Virus record (IMG/VR): IMGVR_UViG_3300048591_000205 | Coordinates: 1-44,383 of that record | DNA from: a virus | Reading direction: 5' to 3' (one strand) | DNA: 44,383 bases | Shown here: positions 2,927 to 17,479 of the stretch, in pieces | Layout: the number at the start of each line of letters is the position of its first letter | Position numbering within the stretch: position 1 is the first letter of the stretch | The notes under the pieces: model-generated | What the model saw: only the letters and a program-made list of their open reading frames with translations | What the model was told of the DNA's origin: nothing | Databases searched by the model: none | Translations under genes and position numbers: made by a program

Positions 2927-3109
2927 CTATATCGCGTTAGGGGCTTTGGCCTTGTCGATCCGCTGCCGTACCCACTCAGCCCCACCGAGTAGCGCCAGCT
3001 TGTCGCGTTGTGCTTCAGTCATGCGCAGGGATACCGTCACAGTGCCCTGCCCTTCTTTGATCGGCTTGCGCCCTTGGCCTCGCCCCGGCCCACCGCGTTG
3101 CGCGTTCAT
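2927..3109 (-). CDS. Ribbon-helix-helix-like small protein, 60 aa
   Basis: The basic N-terminus GRGQGRKPI is followed by TVTVSLRMTEAQRDKLALL, a strand-helix-helix pattern suggesting an RHH DNA-binding fold. ATG at 3107-3109 overlaps the preceding stop (ATGA). It is the third gene of an operon that starts at the strong promoter 3593-3620, whose two 16-bp operator-like repeats it might bind. Autoregulation is inference. Confidence 0.5.
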   Translation of the reverse strand: MNAQRGGPGRGQGRKPIKEGQGTVTVSLRMTEAQRDKLALLGGAEWVRQRIDKAKAPNAI

Positions 3110-3366
3110 TTGATGTACTCAGCGAACTTGGAGCGCCAGTTCGTGCTGCCAAGGCAGCCGCGCTCGATTACCGCAAACATCGGAACATCCTCTTCGTCAA
3201 GCACTCGCGTCCAGATCACGCACCCAAACAGCCGCCACCGCTTCACCAACTGCTGCTTTGTGCCTTGGTCTTCGCAGTAGCCACTGCGCGGGCCGGTTCC
3301 ACGGCGAATGTCGTGCACAACCCAATCTATGCGGCGCACTTCGAGCGAAACAGAAAGCGACTTCAC
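3106..3366 (-). CDS. Hypothetical protein, 86 aa, GTG start
   Basis: GTG at 3364-3366 overlaps the previous stop as GTGA, a translational coupling signature; upstream in this frame no convincing start exists. The sequence is basic and Trp/Arg-rich (VRRIDWVVHDIRRG, KRWRLFGCVIW). No domain recognised. Second gene of the small operon driven from 3593-3620. Confidence 0.55.
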   Translation of the reverse strand: MKSLSVSLEVRRIDWVVHDIRRGTGPRSGYCEDQGTKQQLVKRWRLFGCVIWTRVLDEEDVPMFAVIERGCLGSTNWRSKFAEYIK

Positions 3367-3560
3367 GCCGCCACCTGTTCGCAGTGTTCCGCCAGTTCGC
3401 GGGCTTCGTCGGCCCACTGGCCGGATTCTTCGTTTGCTGCATTGCGCAGGCTGTGCGCCGCGTCGAGCCACTGACCGTTGGCGACCGCAGTAAAGGCGAT
3501 CTGTGCGCGCTTTACTTGGCTGTCCGGGGCAGTCATCAGAAGTTCGTAGGCTGTTTTCAT
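3363..3560 (-). CDS. Hypothetical protein, 65 aa, helical
   Basis: ATG 3558-3560 with AGGAG seven bases upstream, 33 bp after the -10 of a strong promoter. All-helical, Ala/Glu-rich. No domain recognised. First gene of a three-gene unit directly after the last attC of the minus-strand array; no attC follows, so it belongs to phage DNA or to an unfinished last cassette. Confidence 0.6.
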   Translation of the reverse strand: MKTAYELLMTAPDSQVKRAQIAFTAVANGQWLDAAHSLRNAANEESGQWADEARELAEHCEQVAA

Positions 3561-3592
3561 TTCGTTCTCCTTGCGCGTTGTTGATGATTGTT

Positions 3593-3620
3593 ATTGTAGT
3601 GCGCAATCAAACAATGTCAA
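3593..3620 (-). promoter_or_regulatory. Strong sigma70 promoter inside early operon
   Basis: Minus strand: TTGACA (3615-3620), 16-bp spacer, TACAAT (3593-3598). It precedes the 65-aa gene and lies just downstream of attC 3659-3721. A 16-bp repeat copy covers the -10 and spacer, so a repressor could block it. Confidence 0.75.
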
Positions 3621-3654
3621 GAGGTTTCGCAAAATAAATGTAGTGCGCAATCAA
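3595..3654 (-). repeat. Two 16-bp direct repeats (operator-like)
   Basis: The sequence TTGATTGCGCACTACA (minus strand) occurs exactly at 3595-3610 and 3639-3654, 44 bp apart, about four helix turns. One copy overlaps the promoter -10/spacer, the other lies upstream of the -35. The arrangement suggests a cooperative repressor or looping site. Confidence 0.7.
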
Positions 3655-3658
3655 TCGC

Positions 3659-3721
3659 CCCTAACAACCACGTCAACCCGGACCTTCGCTATCGCTCGGC
3701 CGGTTACGTGGGCCGTTAGCC
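3659..3721 (-). other. attC site M1
   Basis: Minus strand: R'' GGCTAAC at 3715-3721 and R' GTTAGGG at 3659-3665. Inner arms CACGT-AACCGG and CCGGGTTGACGTG pair with one unpaired C, the extrahelical base expected of attC. R'' overlaps the stop codon of the 3716-3934 ORF. Confidence 0.8.
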
Positions 3722-3934
3722 GGCATTGGCCTGCGTCCGCTTGATGAGCGTTTCGAGTCTCCGCTGCATCATGTCCGCCGCACCCTCCCATCCGGCGGCT
3801 TCAGCTTCGAGCGTCTTTGCGTCGTCGCGTAACTTGTTTGCCTGTCGGCGTAGTTCCTGTGCCTTGAACTGCGTTTCCTTCACGGCCGTGTCAAGGTCTC
3901 TCGCGTCCAACGCTTGCGGTTTTTCCATGTCCAT
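3716..3934 (-). CDS. Cassette ORF: coiled-coil protein, 72 aa
   Basis: Charged helical protein with heptad-like pattern (KAQELRRQANKLRDDAKTLE), probably a coiled coil. ATG 3932-3934 with AGAGGA upstream. The stop lies inside attC M1, as usual for integron cassettes. No family recognised. Confidence 0.65.
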   Translation of the reverse strand: MDMEKPQALDARDLDTAVKETQFKAQELRRQANKLRDDAKTLEAEAAGWEGAADMMQRRLETLIKRTQANAG

Positions 3935-3969
3935 GTTCGTGTCCTCTTTGCCGGTCTTCGTGGGTAGCC

Positions 3970-4036
3970 GGCTAACCCGTCATTCGAGGCGACCTTCGCA
4001 AAAAGCCGCGAAGGCGCCTCAATTCATGCGTTAGCC
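3970..4036 (-). other. attC site M2
   Basis: Minus strand: R'' GGCTAAC 4030-4036, R' GTTAGCC 3970-3976. Arms ATT-GAGGCG-CCTTCGC versus ATTCGAGGCGACCTTCGC pair with two extrahelical bases (C and A) on one side and a loop of GGCTTTTT. A textbook attC. Confidence 0.92.
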
Positions 4037-4374
4037 GGCTCGAATGCCCACCGCTGTTGGAATCGCCCAACCGTCTTGCCGATCACGCGCACAATGCGAT
4101 GCCGTGGCTTCTTGCTGCCCCACTGCGGCCAGCCGAGTGCAATTAGATCGCCGACCGCAACACCGTCATCGAATTGCGGGTAGCAGAAAAACACCTCGTT
4201 GTGTTCCCGATCGACCCATCCGTCATCAGGGTGCGCTGCCTTTACGCCGGCCGCTCTCAGTGTGGCAATCCATCCAGCTTGGTCGCGCTCCATGTCGCCA
4301 GCAATACCGGCGAACAGTGCCACCGCGTCGGGCCTTCCAGAAACGCCGCGCATCAGGTCTTGTGCTAATCCCAT
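4024..4374 (-). CDS. Cassette ORF: hypothetical protein, 116 aa
   Basis: Start set at ATG 4372-4374 with an AGAGAGGA-type ribosome site; the frame is open upstream but enters attC M3. A central region rich in Trp, Asp and Gly (HPDDGWVDREHNEVFFCYP) and a basic C-terminus. Stop within attC M2. No known family recognised. Confidence 0.65.
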   Translation of the reverse strand: MGLAQDLMRGVSGRPDAVALFAGIAGDMERDQAGWIATLRAAGVKAAHPDDGWVDREHNEVFFCYPQFDDGVAVGDLIALGWPQWGSKKPRHRIVRVIGKTVGRFQQRWAFEPANA

Positions 4375-4401
4375 ATCTCTATCCTCTCTCCGAAAATCGC
4401 C

Positions 4402-4458
4402 GGCTAACCCGGCAGTCCAGCGGACGCCGTGCCGGCGCCGCTGACTTTTGCGTTGGGC
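4402..4458 (-). other. attC site M3
   Basis: Minus strand: R'' GCCCAAC 4452-4458 (matches RYYYAAC), R' GTTAGCC 4402-4408. Arms AGTC-AGCGG and CCGCTGGACT pair with an extrahelical C. The 4404-4685 ORF reads through the whole site. Confidence 0.85.
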
Positions 4459-4685
4459 ATCGGAGTCAGCCACTCCAATGGGCATCCAACATACTTGTAG
4501 ATCGTCGCTCCAAAACAGACCCACGCGCCGCCATTTCCAGCAGGGGCGAGGATGGTCCCTTCCGCCCCGTCATAACCAAAATGCTCCCCATATACCACCG
4601 GCACCCTACATTTGTGCTTCTCGCTTTTCGGTATGTCCAACCGCACACGAATATTCAGCGGACCGCGTAGATCAGTTACGTTCAT
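4404..4685 (-). CDS. Cassette ORF reading through its attC, 93 aa
   Basis: Start ATG 4683-4685 after AGGGG (another ATG at 4703 lies in the neighbouring attC). The body contains VVYGEHFGYDGAEGTILAPAGNG and WVCFGATIYKYVG, a beta-rich small domain of unknown function. The last residues (GTASAGLPG) are encoded by the attC itself and match the tail of the plus-strand ORF ending at 11183. Confidence 0.65.
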   Translation of the reverse strand: MNVTDLRGPLNIRVRLDIPKSEKHKCRVPVVYGEHFGYDGAEGTILAPAGNGGAWVCFGATIYKYVGCPLEWLTPMPNAKVSGAGTASAGLPG

Positions 4686-4697
4686 CGTTTCCCCTAT

Positions 4698-4764
4698 GCC
4701 CAACCCGTCATTCCACCGGACCTGCGCAAAAAGCCGCGCAGGCCGGTGAATTCAGACGTTACTC
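4698..4764 (-). other. attC site M4 (array start after NinB-like gene)
   Basis: Minus strand: R'' GAGTAAC 4758-4764 overlapping the NinB-like stop codon; R' GTTGGGC 4698-4704, a perfect GTTRRRY. Arms ATTC-ACCGG-CCTGCGC versus ATTCCACCGGACCTGCGC leave two extrahelical bases. The loop is nearly identical to that of M2. Confidence 0.9.
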
Positions 4765-5083
4765 ACGCCGCATCCCTTTCCGCCGCCCATATCCCCATTT
4801 CTGCCGCCCATGCCTGCACCTTCTCGATGTACTCCGACATGGTTAATTTGTCCGGCCCGGATTTGCGGCTCACGCTGTTGGCGACGAACTTAGTCCGGCC
4901 ATCAGGTAGCGAAACTTCATGCCCGCCCAAGTACAGTTCTTTCAGGTACAGGTGCAGCCCTTCAACCTTTATGCCGCGCTCTGACAGCTTGGGGTGCTGG
5001 CAGTACTGGCCGAGCAGGGCGAAATACTTGTCTCTCTGCTGGTCGGACAGCTTTTCTTCTCGGCCACAGGTGGGGCAAATCAT
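4763..5083 (-). CDS. NinB-like recombination protein with N-terminal zinc motif
   Basis: 106 aa. ATG 5081-5083 overlaps the previous stop (ATGA). N-terminal CPTCG is followed by LSDQQRDKYFALLGQYC and later VANSVSRKSGPDKLTMSEYIEKVQ, matching the end of lambda NinB-like proteins (ssDNA-binding recombination mediators of the nin region). Shorter than lambda NinB (about 146 aa). Last true phage gene before the minus-strand cassettes. Assignment is by motif resemblance and position. Confidence 0.5.
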   Translation of the reverse strand: MICPTCGREEKLSDQQRDKYFALLGQYCQHPKLSERGIKVEGLHLYLKELYLGGHEVSLPDGRTKFVANSVSRKSGPDKLTMSEYIEKVQAWAAEMGIWAAERDAA

Positions 5084-5247
5084 TTCAGCAAGTCCAGTTC
5101 GCAACAGTTCGCCGTAGCATCGGTTTGTTCGTAGGAATCCATGACTTCCCGCCTATACATCGGAAGTTCCATAATGACTTGCTTCCAGCTATGCGGATCT
5201 TCGCTGTCATCAATGTCGGGCGCGGTAACGAACTCAACTGGCTTCAC
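5080..5247 (-). CDS. Hypothetical protein, 55 aa, GTG start
   Basis: GTG 5245-5247 follows the stop of the small membrane gene directly (TAG-GTG) and has GGAGGG six bases upstream. Acidic protein (APDIDDSEDPHSW, METLP-like centre) ending with a double Cys. Stop overlaps the NinB-like start. No family recognised; coding is supported by tight coupling on both sides. Confidence 0.6.
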   Translation of the reverse strand: MKPVEFVTAPDIDDSEDPHSWKQVIMELPMYRREVMDSYEQTDATANCCELDLLK

Positions 5248-5355
5248 CTAGAACCCTCCATAGCGGTCAAAAAACTCAGCCCACAGCTTCACGCCGAAGG
5301 CCAGCCATACGCCGAACAGCACGGCGAATATTGATAACTCGATTAGTTCATTCAT
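5248..5355 (-). CDS. Small single-pass membrane protein, 35 aa
   Basis: ATG 5353-5355 overlaps the end of the upstream gene. One hydrophobic segment (LSIFAVLFGVWLAFGVKLW) spans most of the protein. Part of the tightly packed early chain; role unknown. Confidence 0.55.
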   Translation of the reverse strand: MNELIELSIFAVLFGVWLAFGVKLWAEFFDRYGGF

Positions 5356-5563
5356 TCACCACCTCCAGCCTTCCATCAAACACAAATCCGCAACCACGCA
5401 GCCAGTCTGAAAAGGCGTCAACCACATCCTCAAGGCCAGCATCCGGCTTGACGTAGCACAGCACAGCGTTAGCGCCGCTTTCGTAGTGCGCCAGCCCTTC
5501 CCGGTGATAGCAGGCGAACACCATATCTCCGGGGCGAAGCTCGATTTGCCGGGATTCAGTCAT
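5348..5563 (-). CDS. Hypothetical protein, 71 aa
   Basis: ATG 5561-5563 with a strong AAGGAGG site and ATGA overlap with the preceding gene. Contains RPGDMVFACYHREG and CYVKPDAGLEDVVDAFSDWLRGCGF, a compact alpha/beta-looking domain. No family recognised. Confidence 0.65.
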   Translation of the reverse strand: MTESRQIELRPGDMVFACYHREGLAHYESGANAVLCYVKPDAGLEDVVDAFSDWLRGCGFVFDGRLEVVNE

Positions 5564-5724
5564 GCCGCCTCCTTGTCTATCGGTTCGTAAATCTTGCACT
5601 GGCCCGAAAAGTCAGCCCACGAGACAGGCATCCATTCCGGTACGTTTTCGCCAACGTTGGCCTTGTTGCGGTCGCAACTCCAGGTGGCACAGTTGGCAGA
5701 GCAGAATGTCATGTCCATGTACAT
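5560..5724 (-). CDS. Cys-rich small phage protein, 54 aa
   Basis: ATG 5722-5724. The Cys spacing FCSANCATWSCDRN, then WADFSGQCKIYEP near the end, resembles a widespread small phage protein with likely metal binding. Stop overlaps the next ATG. Function unknown. Confidence 0.6.
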   Translation of the reverse strand: MYMDMTFCSANCATWSCDRNKANVGENVPEWMPVSWADFSGQCKIYEPIDKEAA

Positions 5725-5725
5725 G

Positions 5726-5845
5726 TCAGCGCCTCATAAGTTTGTAGTCTTTCCACCGCTTGCCGGATATCCAGCCGCGCAACCGCCACAGCACCTTCCA
5801 CGCGGCACGCTTGATTTGAATGCGTGTGCGGCGCTTGCGATTCAT
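5726..5845 (-). CDS. Very basic protein, 39 aa
   Basis: ATG 5843-5845 overlaps the upstream stop (ATGA). About one third Arg/Lys (MNRKRRTRIQIKRAAWK); probably nucleic-acid binding. Two bases separate its stop from the next start. Too short for domain assignment. Confidence 0.5.
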   Translation of the reverse strand: MNRKRRTRIQIKRAAWKVLWRLRGWISGKRWKDYKLMRR

Positions 5846-6048
5846 GCGGCTTTCCTCTCTGCCTTCATGGCTTCCTCGAAACTGGCGTACTGGCCTACCC
5901 GCTCCCCCTTATCGAACAGCACGTAAATGTTCTCGCCGTTCAGCACGAACTTGGCTACCGTAAGCTGGCCCTTCACCATTGCCCACTTGCCGAGCGGTTC
6001 CCATTTGCCAGCCAGGGCGGATTTGGCGCGGGTGGGTTGTTCGGTCAT
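5842..6048 (-). CDS. Hypothetical protein, 68 aa
   Basis: Start ATG 6046-6048 chosen because it overlaps the preceding stop (ATGA). Basic N-terminus, then beta-rich VKGQLTVAKFVLNGENIYVLF and an acidic/basic helix at the end. No family recognised. Confidence 0.6.
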   Translation of the reverse strand: MTEQPTRAKSALAGKWEPLGKWAMVKGQLTVAKFVLNGENIYVLFDKGERVGQYASFEEAMKAERKAA

Positions 6049-6251
6049 ATGAACACGTACTCCTGCTGCGTCCGCCTGCTGCGTTTCGTCTGCGGCGCGT
6101 CCCACTTGTATGTTTCCCCGCCGTTGATACTGTAGGCATTGCGTGATCGCCCGCAGCACTGGCACCGGAAGCGACGGCACATTTCCCCTGTCTTCAGGTT
6201 GTAGGTTCCGTTGCTCAGGAGCTTGCCTTCGCAGTAGGGGCAGGGAATCAT
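6045..6251 (-). CDS. Zinc-ribbon protein, 68 aa
   Basis: CPYCEGKLLSNGTY and FRCQCCGRSR supply four-plus cysteines in a zinc-ribbon layout like those of transposase or phage DNA-binding subunits. ATG 6249-6251 overlaps the previous stop. Predicted nucleic-acid binding; specific role unknown. Confidence 0.65.
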   Translation of the reverse strand: MIPCPYCEGKLLSNGTYNLKTGEMCRRFRCQCCGRSRNAYSINGGETYKWDAPQTKRSRRTQQEYVFI

Positions 6252-6613
6252 GCGGCTACCTTTTCCTCGTAACGGCTGTTCCACGCTTCCATGTCGCGCC
6301 TGAGATTGGCGTCGGAATAGGCTTTTCTGGCGGCGAATGAATAATCGGGGCGGGGAATGTCACGCCTGGATTTTTCGACTATCTGCGCCCCCAAAATCGG
6401 ATCGGTGCAGTTCTCGTGCGCCTGGCAGTAGTACGGGCCGTCTTTCCCGTGCCCAAACACCCCCGGATAATGGCAGCGCCCCTCCGCTGTCCAGTCACAT
6501 TGGCCGTATTGCTGGTCGTTAAACTTGCGCTCCGCCTTGGCTTGCGGGACTTCCCACCCACATTTGCACTTCGAACCTCTTACGTGGCTTCCGCATTCAG
6601 GACATTCAATCAT
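6248..6613 (-). CDS. Multi-cysteine protein next to replication gene, 121 aa
   Basis: Start ATG 6611-6613 overlaps the rep stop (ATGA). N-terminal zinc ribbon CPECGSHVRGSKCKCGW, then CDWTAEGRCHYPGVFG and CQAHENC, a second metal-binding cluster, and a helical C-terminus. Position just after the O-like gene corresponds to a replication partner slot (lambda P), but the sequence does not look like a helicase loader. Function unknown. Confidence 0.6.
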   Translation of the reverse strand: MIECPECGSHVRGSKCKCGWEVPQAKAERKFNDQQYGQCDWTAEGRCHYPGVFGHGKDGPYYCQAHENCTDPILGAQIVEKSRRDIPRPDYSFAARKAYSDANLRRDMEAWNSRYEEKVAA

Positions 6614-7991: not shown

Positions 7992-8192
7992 TCATGCGGC
8001 GGCTTGTTCTTTCGATTCTAGCACTTCGCGGATCGTTACCGCCCCGCCCGTGTCTCGCTCGAAAGCAAGCGCACGCTCTGGCGGCAATCCGCGTGTTTTC
8101 CAAAGCCGGACAGTTTCTCTAGAGACTCCGTAGAAACGAACGACAGCCCCAGTGGAACCGAAGAAATTAACTAATTTGGTGTATGCGTTCAT
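7992..8192 (-). CDS. Cro/YdaS-like transcription regulator, 66 aa
   Basis: Start ATG 8190-8192 (MNAYTKLVNFFGS), the normal N-terminus of this family; an upstream in-frame ATG at 8252 would place the promoter inside the gene. The helix-turn-helix VVRFYGVSRETVRLWKTRG is followed by LPPERALAFERDTGGAVT, typical of Cro/YdaS repressors. Predicted to bind the divergent promoter region. The proposed transcript starts at or next to the ATG, so the mRNA may be leaderless. Confidence 0.8.
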   Translation of the reverse strand: MNAYTKLVNFFGSTGAVVRFYGVSRETVRLWKTRGLPPERALAFERDTGGAVTIREVLESKEQAAA

Positions 8193-8198
8193 GTAATG

Positions 8199-8227
8199 AT
8201 TTTGCCAAACTGATTTTGATTTGTCAA
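8199..8227 (-). promoter_or_regulatory. Leftward early promoter (pR-like)
   Basis: Minus strand TTGACA (8222-8227), 17-bp spacer, CAAAAT (8199-8204), with a TG dinucleotide one base before the -10 (extended -10). Twenty-one of 29 positions match the rightward promoter. Confidence 0.75.
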
Positions 8228-8276
8228 GCGGTACTTGTAAATTATTTTTCATTTACGCCAAAAAGGGCTTGACAAA
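8220..8276. repeat. 10-bp inverted repeat linking the two early promoters
   Basis: TTTGTCAAGC at 8220-8229 and its exact reverse complement at 8267-8276 cover the -35 boxes of both divergent promoters, 37 bp apart. Likely part of a symmetric operator. Confidence 0.7.
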
Positions 8277-8297
8277 GCAAATATGGTTTGCAATAAT
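8269..8297 (+). promoter_or_regulatory. Rightward early promoter (pL-like)
   Basis: TTGACA (8269-8274), 17-bp spacer, AATAAT (8292-8297), with TG in extended -10 position. Near-consensus; would drive the recombination genes and the long cassette array. Confidence 0.85.
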
Positions 8298-11593: not shown

Positions 11594-11687
11594 GCATAAC
11601 GCTGGCGTAACCGGCCTTGCGCCGACACAGGAGACAACGAAATGACGACGCCTATTGCGCAAGGTCCGGTTGACGTAAATGTTAGCC
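11594..11687 (+). other. attC site P3 with ORF start in its loop
   Basis: R'' GCATAAC 11594-11600; R' GTTAGCC 11681-11687. Arms GCGT-AACCGG-CCTTGCGC versus ACGTCAACCGGACCTTGCGC leave two extrahelical bases. The roughly 30-nt loop holds AGGAG and the ATG of the next ORF. Confidence 0.85.
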
Positions 11688-12563: not shown

Positions 12564-12878
12564 ATGAGCATGAACGAGCTTGCAGCAGAGATCAACGAAA
12601 TTAATCGCGCGAACGGCTGGAAGGTGCTGGAGCCTGAGCAGTGGGCGGACACCTACAAGATACCAGGCATTTTGGCGTTGATTCACAACGAAGTGTCCGA
12701 AGCCCTCGAAGCGTTCCGGCACGACGACAAAACGAACTTCGAGGAAGAACTGGCGGACACGCTGATTCGCGTGCTGGACTGCGCTGGAGGACTCGGCCTC
12801 GACATCGACGCGGCGGTGCGCGCCAAGATGGAAAAGAACAAAGGGCGCGGACACAGGCATGGCGGGAAACGGGTGTGA
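12564..12878 (+). CDS. Cassette ORF: MazG-like NTP pyrophosphohydrolase
   Basis: 104 aa, ATG 12564 after AAGGAGACAATGGC. The acidic metal-binding helices are visible: NEVSEALEAFR (ExxE) and EEELADTLIRVLD (ExxD), the core of all-alpha MazG/dUTPase-like enzymes that hydrolyse nucleoside triphosphates. Basic C-terminus (KGRGHRHGGKRV). Phage MazG proteins can lower alarmone or non-canonical nucleotide pools. It is carried as a mobile cassette here. Confidence 0.8.
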   Translation: MSMNELAAEINEINRANGWKVLEPEQWADTYKIPGILALIHNEVSEALEAFRHDDKTNFEEELADTLIRVLDCAGGLGLDIDAAVRAKMEKNKGRGHRHGGKRV

Positions 12879-14081: not shown

Positions 14082-14202
14082 TTCTAACGCCAAGGTAAGC
14101 GGCGTGCCGCCACAGGACTAAAAGGGAGAGGTGAAGATGGAGCAACTACAAGCGTTTGACGGAGGTACATGCGGCACGTCCGACTTGACTGGCGTGTTAG
14201 GT
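14082..14202 (+). other. attC site P10, long loop with ORF start
   Basis: R'' TTCTAAC 14082-14088; R' GTTAGGT 14196-14202, a perfect GTTRRRY. Left arm GCGGCGTGCCGC pairs with right arm GCGGCACGTCCG. The loop of about 60 nt carries GGGAGAGG and the ATG of the methyltransferase ORF. Confidence 0.75.
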
Positions 14203-14646
14203 GACGGGGGCAAGTGCCACACCATGCGGGTGATGTCCAGCAGCGAGGATATGACTTGGGCGACCCCGCAGGAGTGGTTTGAGTACCTGAATTTGGAATT
14301 CGGCTTCACGCTCGATCCGTGCTGCTGGCCAGACACGGCGAAGTGTAAGAAGTATTACACCCCGGACACGGACGGCCTTGCTCAAAGCTGGGCAGATGAA
14401 CGGGTGTTTATGAACCCGCCATATGGCCGCGAGATAGGCAAGTGGATGAAGAAGGCTTATGAAGAAGCCCGCGACAACGGAGCACTGGTGGTTTGCTTTG
14501 TACCGGCGCGAGTGGATACAAACTGGTGGCACAGCTATGCGGCGAAGGCGACCGAAGTGCGCTTCCCTAAGGGCCGCGTTAAAAACCCTACCGGGATTGC
14601 GTGGCCGTTCCCGGTTGCGGTTGTTGTGTTCAGGCCGCGAGGATGA
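14137..14646 (+). CDS. Cassette ORF: Dam-type N6-adenine DNA methyltransferase
   Basis: 169 aa. TWATPQEWFEYLNLEFGFTLDPCC and RVFMNPPYGREIGKWMKKA give the family's TPxxxF...DPC and catalytic NPPY motifs of phage Dam-like (PF05869-type) enzymes. ATG 14137 lies in the attC P10 loop, adding about 30 residues; family members usually begin near the internal ATG 14224 or 14233. Protects phage DNA from restriction or alters host methylation. Confidence 0.88.
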   Translation: MEQLQAFDGGTCGTSDLTGVLGDGGKCHTMRVMSSSEDMTWATPQEWFEYLNLEFGFTLDPCCWPDTAKCKKYYTPDTDGLAQSWADERVFMNPPYGREIGKWMKKAYEEARDNGALVVCFVPARVDTNWWHSYAAKATEVRFPKGRVKNPTGIAWPFPVAVVVFRPRG

Positions 14647-15416: not shown

Positions 15417-16280
15417 ATGAACAGACCCCTTGTGATCTACCACGGCAACTGTGCAGACGGCTTCAGCGCCGCGTGGTGCTTCTGGCGCAAGTACGGCACC
15501 AACGCCGACTACGTGGCTGGCGTGTACCAGCAAGACCCGCCCTACGTGGCCGGGCGCGATGTGTACTTGGTGGACTTCAGTTACAAGGCGCCCGTGGTGG
15601 CCGACATGCTGCGGAAGGCTCGCAGCGTGACCCTGATTGACCACCACAAGACCGCGATTGACGATCTGCTCCCGCTGAAGTCCGACATGGCGGCGACCAA
15701 CAACAACGGCATGGGCGACAACTTCGGTTGGTTCTGCGACCTGAACCGCAGCGGCGCCACGCTGGCCTGGGACTACCTGTTCCCCGGCGAAGACCGGCCG
15801 CTGCTGCTGGGCCATGTTGAGGACCGCGACCTCTGGCGGTTCAAGCTGCCGGGCACGCGCGAGATTCAGGCGTTCGTGTTCTCGCACGAATACAGCTTCG
15901 AGTTGTGGGACAAGCTGATGAGCGCCGACCAGGTGGAACTGCTGAAGATGACCGCGGCCGGCGCCGCCATCGAGCGCAAGCACCACAAGGACGTGGCCGA
16001 GCTGGTGGCCGTGTGCAAGCGGCGCATGGTCATCGGCGCCTATGACGTGCCGGTGGCGAGCCTGCCCTACACGCTGGTGAGCGATGCCGCGCACCTGATG
16101 GCGCAGGGCGAGCCGTTCGCCGCGTGCTACTGGGACACGGCCGAAGGTCGGGTGTTCGGCCTGCGCGCCACCGACGAAGGCGTGGACGTGTCCGAGGTGG
16201 CGAAGCAGTACGGCGGCGGAGGCCACGCCAAGGCGGCCGGCTTCAAGGTCCCGCGCGGGCATGTCCTGGCGGTGGCGTGA
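15417..16280 (+). CDS. Cassette ORF: DHH-family phosphoesterase
   Basis: 287 aa, the largest cassette gene. Start ATG 15417 with AAGGA; a GTG at 15384 inside attC P13 is less likely. HGNCADGFSAAW, VDFSYKAP, TLIDHHKTA (the DHH motif) and GGGGHAKAAGF (DHHA1) are all present, so both DHH and DHHA1 domains look complete. Such enzymes cleave small RNAs, pAp or cyclic dinucleotides. Its strongly GC3-biased codons differ from neighbours, consistent with recent capture. Confidence 0.88.
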   Translation: MNRPLVIYHGNCADGFSAAWCFWRKYGTNADYVAGVYQQDPPYVAGRDVYLVDFSYKAPVVADMLRKARSVTLIDHHKTAIDDLLPLKSDMAATNNNGMGDNFGWFCDLNRSGATLAWDYLFPGEDRPLLLGHVEDRDLWRFKLPGTREIQAFVFSHEYSFELWDKLMSADQVELLKMTAAGAAIERKHHKDVAELVAVCKRRMVIGAYDVPVASLPYTLVSDAAHLMAQGEPFAACYWDTAEGRVFGLRATDEGVDVSEVAKQYGGGGHAKAAGFKVPRGHVLAVA

Positions 16281-16362: not shown

Positions 16363-16737
16363 ATGATGTGTGAGACATGCGAAAACGAAGAACCGAACCT
16401 GATGGCAATCTGGGCCGCCGCCGACAAGAAGGCGAAGGACTGGCGCGAGGCCGGAGAGGAAGAACTGCTGCGGCAGATGCTCGACGCACGCGAAGGGCTG
16501 AAGTCGCTCGGATGGCGCGACGGGCAATACGCGCCGAAGGACGGCACGCGGTTTCTTTCGATTGAGTCCGGAAGCACTGGCGTTTTTCCGTGCTACTGGA
16601 TGACCAACAAGCACATGGCGGAAGGTGGCGGATTCTGGAGCGAGGCGCATGGCGATCTGTGGCCGGCGAAACCTACGCTGTGGAAACCGATGCCTTCTAA
16701 CGTCGAAGGTCAGGGGCGCGCCCATGACAACGATTGA
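16363..16737 (+). CDS. Cassette ORF: hypothetical protein with DUF551-like end, 124 aa
   Basis: ATG 16363 (or 16366) after GGGAGACG. Helical N-terminus with CETCENEE, then WRDGQYAPKDGTRFLSIE and FWSEAHGDLWPAKPTLWKPMP, the W/P pattern of small DUF551-like phage proteins (expected xPTHWMPLP). The end reads into attC P15 and overlaps the next ORF by 14 bp. Confidence 0.7.
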   Translation: MMCETCENEEPNLMAIWAAADKKAKDWREAGEEELLRQMLDAREGLKSLGWRDGQYAPKDGTRFLSIESGSTGVFPCYWMTNKHMAEGGGFWSEAHGDLWPAKPTLWKPMPSNVEGQGRAHDND

Positions 16738-16784
16738 ACAACCTGCCGAGCTTGCGGCGCGTCCCCTGCAACGCAGGGTTCGGC
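16695..16784 (+). other. attC site P15 with ORF start in its loop
   Basis: R'' TTCTAAC 16695-16701; R' GTTCGGC 16778-16784. GGT-CAGGGG-CGCGCC versus GTTGCAGGGGACGCGCC leave two extrahelical bases. The loop holds ATG 16724. Confidence 0.88.
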
Positions 16785-17197
16785 GTTTTCGCGTGAGCTT
16801 TGCCTGCAACGACCCCGACAACGGCGACTTCATCGGGCGCGCGATGGCGGCGCAGGTGGAAAGTCTTGGGCCTCATCCGTGGGACGCCGAGCTTGTGCAC
16901 GACGATTGGGGCCGGGGCTGCCGGCTGACGGTAGATTACAAGCTGATGAAGCTGCGCATTCACGGCGTGTGGTTCCCGTTCAAGGCTCGGCGCTCGTGGT
17001 TCGGGAATTGGTGCTGGGAGGCGTTCGAGTTTGAGCGAGCGACCGGAAAGCGGCTGCTGATGCTGATGCGGGAGCGCGGCCCCTGGCACTGCGAGGCCGG
17101 GGCCTCGACGTTCTTCCGGTGGTGGAAGAAGACGCCGAACGTGTTAGCTAACCGGCGCTGCGCGCCACGGACATCAAACGAAGCCACAGGAGAATGA
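16724..17197 (+). CDS. Cassette ORF: hypothetical protein, 157 aa
   Basis: ATG 16724 in the loop of attC P15, so about 20 N-terminal residues (TIEQPAELAARPLQRRV) are attC-encoded. Trp/Arg-rich body (WFPFKARRSWFGNWCWEAFEFER, FFRWWKKTP). No known family. The C-terminal tail is read from the left arm of attC P16. The stop is 3 bp before the next ATG. Confidence 0.65.
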   Translation: MTTIEQPAELAARPLQRRVRRFRVSFACNDPDNGDFIGRAMAAQVESLGPHPWDAELVHDDWGRGCRLTVDYKLMKLRIHGVWFPFKARRSWFGNWCWEAFEFERATGKRLLMLMRERGPWHCEAGASTFFRWWKKTPNVLANRRCAPRTSNEATGE

Positions 17198-17257
17198 GAA
17201 ATGACAGGCGAAAAGACGACCGATAGCGCAGCGTCCGCGTTGAGCGCCGGGTTGGGG
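17134..17257 (+). other. attC site P16, long loop with ORF start
   Basis: R'' GCCGAAC 17134-17140; R' GTTGGGG 17251-17257. GCT-AAC-CGG-CGCTGCGC versus GCTCAACGCGGACGCTGCGC leave three extrahelical bases. The loop of about 60 nt has AGGAG and ATG 17201. Confidence 0.85.
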
Positions 17258-17479
17258 GCGCTTCTGCCTTGCCCGTTTTGCGGCGGACCAGTAACCCTTG
17301 AACAAAGCACCGAACAGTACAGCCGAGAGCATGGCCAGCGCCAGTATTGGGGCGTGGTTTGCCGGAACGTGATCAATCTCGGCGGAAGTTGCTGCATTGA
17401 GCAGATACCGTCGGCGAGCAAAGAAGCGGCGGTAGCGCGCTGGAACATGAGAAACGGACAAGCCCCCAACAAGATGTAG
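17201..17479 (+). CDS. Cassette ORF: Lar-like restriction alleviation protein
   Basis: 92 aa. LLPCPFCGGPVTLEQ, GVVCRNVINLGGSC and KEAAVARWNMR follow the Lar/restriction-alleviation pattern (CPFCG...C...EAixxWN). ATG 17201 lies in attC P16, so residues 1-19 come from the attC right arm; a normal Lar begins at the LLPCPFCGG segment. Lar proteins modulate host type I restriction. Last cassette; no full attC follows. Confidence 0.75.
   Translation: MTGEKTTDSAASALSAGLGALLPCPFCGGPVTLEQSTEQYSREHGQRQYWGVVCRNVINLGGSCCIEQIPSASKEAAVARWNMRNGQAPNKM

Follow-up and report, generated by a model that had tools for sequence, protein, structure and literature searches.

The window, that is, the whole stretch of DNA analysed here, comprises the 44,383 bases of IMG/VR virus record IMGVR_UViG_3300048591_000205. 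Its genes include those for a portal, a major head protein, a tail fiber, a terminase, an Erf annealing protein, an exonuclease and SSB. The opening and closing 127 bases match exactly as a direct terminal repeat, and the TerL reading frame (phrog_38) runs uninterrupted across this repeat. As assembled, it is therefore a phage genome that is complete. A leftward early operon begins near a regulator gene (7992-8252, minus strand; PHROG/profile match), beside which a promoter scan placed divergent promoter-like sites at 8227-8199 (minus strand) and 8269-8297 (plus strand). A terminator-like hairpin lies at 7956-7933 despite this operon start near 8.2-8.3 kb. Genes of the operon include one for a replication initiator and one resembling NinB, and four attC sites (M1-M4) follow directly after NinB. 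A second attC array lies on the plus strand. The GC-skew minimum near 7-8.5 kb is compatible with an origin between the two arrays, a signal that is confounded by coding strand.

All features of the first region are on the minus strand. The array is flanked upstream by a gene for a NinB/Orf-like recombination mediator (4763-5083; PHROG 72, E 7e-10), whose stop codon is overlapped by the first site, M1 (4698-4764). The unit 1 ORF (4404-4685, from the ORF list) encodes 93 aa, of which the final 18 are encoded by M2 (4402-4458, left box GCCCAAC), and has no PHROG or Pfam match at E 0.001. The left box of M2 holds no stop codon, and therefore the ORFs upstream of it in two phages (window 4404-4458; L238 11223-11277), although unrelated, share the identical attC-encoded tail PNAKVSGAGTASAGLPG. 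The unit 2 ORF (4024-4374) encodes 116 aa of PHROG 9621, a family of unknown function (E 3e-31); its predicted structure has a pLDDT of 84, and a PDB fold search with this structure returned nothing significant. M3 (3970-4036) precedes the unit 3 ORF (3716-3934, 72 aa, from the ORF list), which stops exactly on the TAA of the left box of M4 (3659-3721). M4 is followed by a sigma-70-like promoter (3593-3620, TTGACA-16-TACAAT) that is conserved in L046 and L233, and by three small genes: one of 65 aa (3363-3560; PHROG 34498) with a relative in L046 that also lies inside an array, one of 86 aa (3106-3366; PHROG 36596) and an ORF of 60 aa (2927-3109) with DNA relatives in L232/L233. A lone terminal box, GCCCCTAAC (2944-2936), is complementary to the right box of M4 and has no attC behind it, and an HNH/DUF968-like gene (2626-2985; PHROG/Pfam match) forms the other flank. 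Because the fourth unit, M4 with its own promoter and three small genes, ends at this lone box, the array spans 2936-4764 and holds four units, each an attC with the gene or genes downstream. An earlier reading made from the sequence alone had confined it to 3659-4764 with three cassettes.

To avoid circularity, the covariance model used to assess the sites (R1) was built from 36 sequences, 35 from other viral contigs and the attC of aadA1 on plasmid R100, with zero window sequence. It recovered all four minus-strand sites that the sequence-only reading had named, namely M1 (67.6 bits, E 8e-15), M2 (58.9 bits, E 1e-12), M3 (63.9 bits, E 7e-14) and the weak M4 (23.4 bits, E 0.0012). All four fold as attC sites: compared with 200 shuffles, M1 (z -5.4) and M3 (z -4.9) fold far better than every shuffle, M2 and M4 only modestly better (z about -2.4). 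A strict structural scanner gave 0 hits in 10 Markov shuffles, so that chance expectation is near nil. A first MAFFT alignment of the window sites (A1) was poor and was set aside, an Rfam search gave no match, and BLAST of one attC against plasmids gave chance matches only. The M sites display inverted repeats of R and L boxes, two extrahelical bases and a hairpin fold. Searches of the window with the PF00589 and TIGR02249 profiles found no tyrosine recombinase. Four nearby attCs in a window from which an integron integrase is absent constitute a CALIN. The window lacks the intI and attI of a complete integron, its terminal lone boxes being attI-like in position only.

The plus-strand array, P1-P16 (10642-17470), has the same polarity as the M sites by the R1 model and likewise ends at a lone box, GCCCCCAAC (17462-17470). 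Its existence, claimed earlier, is thus confirmed, with the qualification that the model found 15 sites and that P2 is weak (13 bits), weaker than M4. Four of its attCs (11594-11687, 14082-14202, 16695-16784 and 17134-17257) have long loops in which the next gene has its ribosome-binding site and start codon, and an attC arm thus encodes the N-terminus of that gene. Cassettes of this array encode a MazG-like protein (12564-12878), a Dam-type methyltransferase (14137-14646), a DHH phosphoesterase (15417-16280) and a Lar-like restriction-alleviation protein (17201-17479).

Because the sequence comes from an IMG/VR virus contig, a chimeric contig or an assembly artefact has to be considered as the source of the arrays. 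The terminal repeat and the continuous TerL, which mark the window as complete, make a chimera unlikely. In addition, another phage, L006, has the same arrangement, with a NinB 74% identical to that of the window and, between NinB and the same HNH-type gene, a different array with other cassettes. Opposite-strand array pairs also recur in two other phages (L213 and L214). We consider the artefact explanation negligible, and the earlier argument against a chimera is strongly supported. L007 has NinB and no attC array. In L006, a tRNA-Arg (anticodon tct; 3332-3408) lies in a phage cassette directly after an attC.

In integrons, extrahelical bases mark the recombinogenic bottom strand of the attC, which is folded and cut (PMC8946536). 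We took the normal placement of these bases, on the gene-antisense strand, from the R100 aadA1 control, in which the model-matching strand is antisense to the gene. In M1-M4 and the P sites, the model-matching strand with the extrahelical bases is the gene-sense strand, and the phage genes thus stand back to front compared with bacterial cassettes. Hence, the mobile unit would be an attC and the gene downstream of it, cut in the left box (TAA^C). The anatomy of a gene followed by its attC, as the sequence-only reading implied, does not hold: the array departs from canonical cassettes, whose gene lies 5' of an attC of the same polarity, and its unit boundary is the left box.

To place this polarity in a wider set, IMG/VR was scanned with two degenerate attC patterns, which means that the phage set is selected by attC pattern. 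With genes called heuristically as Shine-Dalgarno ORFs, intervals between adjacent phage attCs are sense in 163 cases, antisense in 5 and undecided in 31. By majority, 63 of 69 phage arrays are sense (inverted) and five are ties; bacterial polarity prevails in one phage array alone, L062. TerL of one PHROG occurs in 33 of the 52 phage records checked, and most survey records are therefore real phages. A scan of 84,980 prokaryote genomes with one degenerate attC pattern yielded, among the matches listed, 41 antisense, 11 sense and 36 undecided intervals. Bacterial loci that also contain intI, again among the matches listed, were antisense in 17 cases and sense in 3. The opposite-strand pairs in L213 and L214 indicate that polarity tracks each operon, not one genome strand.

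The window and L215 (IMGVR_UViG_3300048592_000228) share 430 bp with 0 mismatches, from 4458 to 4029 in the window, with the left box of M2 at one end and the following left box at the other. This segment holds M2 (57 of 57 bases identical) and the 116-aa gene, and immediately outside it there is no similarity. The L215 contig encodes a phrog_2 TerL and the primase of a different phage. Furthermore, the near-identical phages L017 and L019 differ here by exactly one unit, which occupies 3431-3964 of L017; the break lies within a left box, GCCTAACGC, that both have. A 99% match between L034 and L047 extends as far as the left box of their first attC, and beyond it the arrays of the two differ. 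Over all loci, 31 homology breakpoints fall at a left box versus 9 at a right box (counted from both sides; about 17 versus 5 unique), and a minority lies at the right box or mid-site. One right-box exception concerns the gene after M4, which in L233 has a different attC upstream and common sequence from the right box onward. The indel between L081 and L082 was rejected as unrelated to attC. In eight homologous cassette pairs, comparing the identity of upstream and downstream attCs gave little information for the most part, since attCs are similar to one another, but one of the pairs pointed to L017/L019. The matching box halves of canonical cassettes are present at the unit ends: the right box of one site and the left box of the next are complementary over at least 7 bases in 63% of neighbours versus 6% in a within-site control. 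A lone terminal box of at least 8 bases follows the last detected attC in 40 of 73 arrays versus 12 of 430 null draws, although some of these boxes may be left boxes of attCs missed by the model. At the level of sequence, the sites, their polarity, the unit boundaries, the exact exchange of a unit between the window and an unrelated phage, and the gain or loss of a unit between near-identical phages are evident from these comparisons. The exact 430-bp unit in an unrelated phage suggests that phages appear to trade cassettes of their own kind; together with the opposite-strand pairs, it strongly supports the earlier proposal that the arrays were acquired by recombination.

The attC sequences themselves are bacterial in type. 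M1 is 96% identical to a site in a Comamonas MAG, where the genes point in the opposite direction, the box spacing is the same under either polarity, and the phage TJE1 shows bacterial polarity. One might therefore suppose that the arrays consist of ordinary cassettes, each a gene with its own attC in bacterial polarity, captured from host integrons. This would leave the extrahelical bases on the wrong strand, and it conflicts with unit boundaries at left boxes (for M2 it is refuted by the comparison of the window with L215), with the presence, after the last attC, of complete units that terminate in a lone box, and with gene starts inside some attCs. We thus regard capture of such cassettes as highly improbable.

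Alternatively, units could be moved without an integrase by phage homologous recombination at short repeats. The window encodes suitable functions (Erf annealing protein, exonuclease, SSB and NinB), attCs are repeats, and the breakpoints at right boxes or mid-site would fit. Most breaks, however, fall at one point in a shared box of 7-9 bases and not in longer shared stretches, the matching of boxes is preserved, a unit is common to unrelated phages that show no homology beyond it, and one related phage has a full IntI beside its array. This makes homologous recombination an unlikely cause. In addition, hairpins might be kept as elements that control mRNA or translation, with recombination incidental. 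Among 190 phage cassette ORFs, 53 stop exactly on the TAA of a box and 18 start inside an attC, as such a role would favor. Yet in boxes, spacing and extrahelical bases the hairpins agree with recombination sites, the R100 control among them, and units demonstrably move in both the L017/L019 and the window/L215 pairs, which renders a mere control function very unlikely. The explanation we prefer, and consider very probable as a whole, is that the array consists of clustered integron attC sites of the working type, with no integrase, in a tailed-phage early operon, and that its mobile unit is an attC with the gene or genes after it, bounded at both ends by a left R box in which the cut falls at TAA^C.

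The related phage with IntI is G016 (IMGVR_UViG_3300034191_000023, locus L212). Its full intI (5454-6476, minus strand; 468 bits against TIGR02249) lies just downstream of an inverted attC array and shares its direction of transcription; a likely attI separates the two. A second integrase-like gene (4110-5294) is encoded on this contig as well, as is an endolysin. This phage integron resembles the window in its inverted array within a phage operon and differs in the full intI and likely attI, as the window lacks intI.

Phage CALINs have been described, and some phage attCs were shown to recombine with attI1 (Qi 2023, PMC9892861). As reported there, they are alike in being attC clusters without integrase in tailed phages; the text consulted makes no mention of inverted polarity, unit boundaries, exchange of units between phages or paired opposite-strand arrays. 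In the literature searched, we found no report of a systematic inversion of phage attC polarity. By the R1 model, the CALIN phage MW202573, which has about 40 bp in common with M2, shows inverted polarity, whereas TJE1, a virulent CALIN phage of the same study, has bacterial polarity; the text consulted speaks of neither. The class 1 aadA1 cassette of R100 matches the model at 57.7 bits, although it is itself one of the 36 training rows, and differs in its opposite gene polarity. The sedentary chromosomal integrons of Betaproteobacteria have near-identical attC sequences, in which the extrahelical-base (EHB) rule would cut the same box. They differ in their opposite gene orientation (the 17 to 3 excess beside intI among the matches listed), in the presence of intI and in gene content.

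Relatives of phage cassette proteins occur in other phage arrays for 59 of 190, and in bacterial integron loci, among the matches listed from a small and diverse bacterial sample, for 7 of 190. All seven lie in one locus, L175 (Betaproteobacteria bacterium SCN1), the sole bacterial locus among the matches listed with such relatives and possibly a prophage. A host integron pool shared by both arrays is thus not borne out for the genes; as for the sites, the attC sequences do resemble betaproteobacterial attCs.

Since the searches of the window yielded no tyrosine recombinase, we infer that IntI is supplied in trans. An integron integrase from the host or a co-infecting phage would excise and insert units as circles, as in bacterial integrons; the natural exchange of units supports recombination of the M sites by such an enzyme. 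For arriving units, either the early promoter or one of their own could drive expression, because their genes stay sense to the phage operon. When the recombinogenic strand lies on the lagging-strand template, folding of the attC and excision are favored (PMC8946536, PMC5371416). Provided that forks travel in the direction of transcription, inverted polarity might place the recombinogenic strand on this template, which would be opposite to large chromosomal integrons; this is speculative. The intI of G016 beside a co-directional inverted array suggests an origin via phage integrons. As a conjecture, an intI might have joined an early operon co-directionally, so that cassettes at its attI were expressed only when their genes were inverted, and later loss of intI would leave integrase-less arrays like those of the window.

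Proteobacterial phages could run an integron-cassette exchange network of their own, which would have a gene pool distinct from that of bacterial integrons and an inverted polarity, a proposition that we hold to be evenly balanced. The network may descend from phage integrons whose intI was captured co-directionally with the early operon. If true, it would keep phage genes sense in phage operons, whereas host cassettes would be antisense in phage operons and phage cassettes antisense in host integrons. Scattered phage CALINs would then become a coherent system of modular, gene-sized swaps between unrelated phages at defined points and with a polarity opposite to that of bacterial integrons. 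Such unit swapping would add a further mechanism of phage mosaicism to homologous and illegitimate recombination, and inverted arrays make the rules of integron strand choice and replication orientation directly testable in phages.
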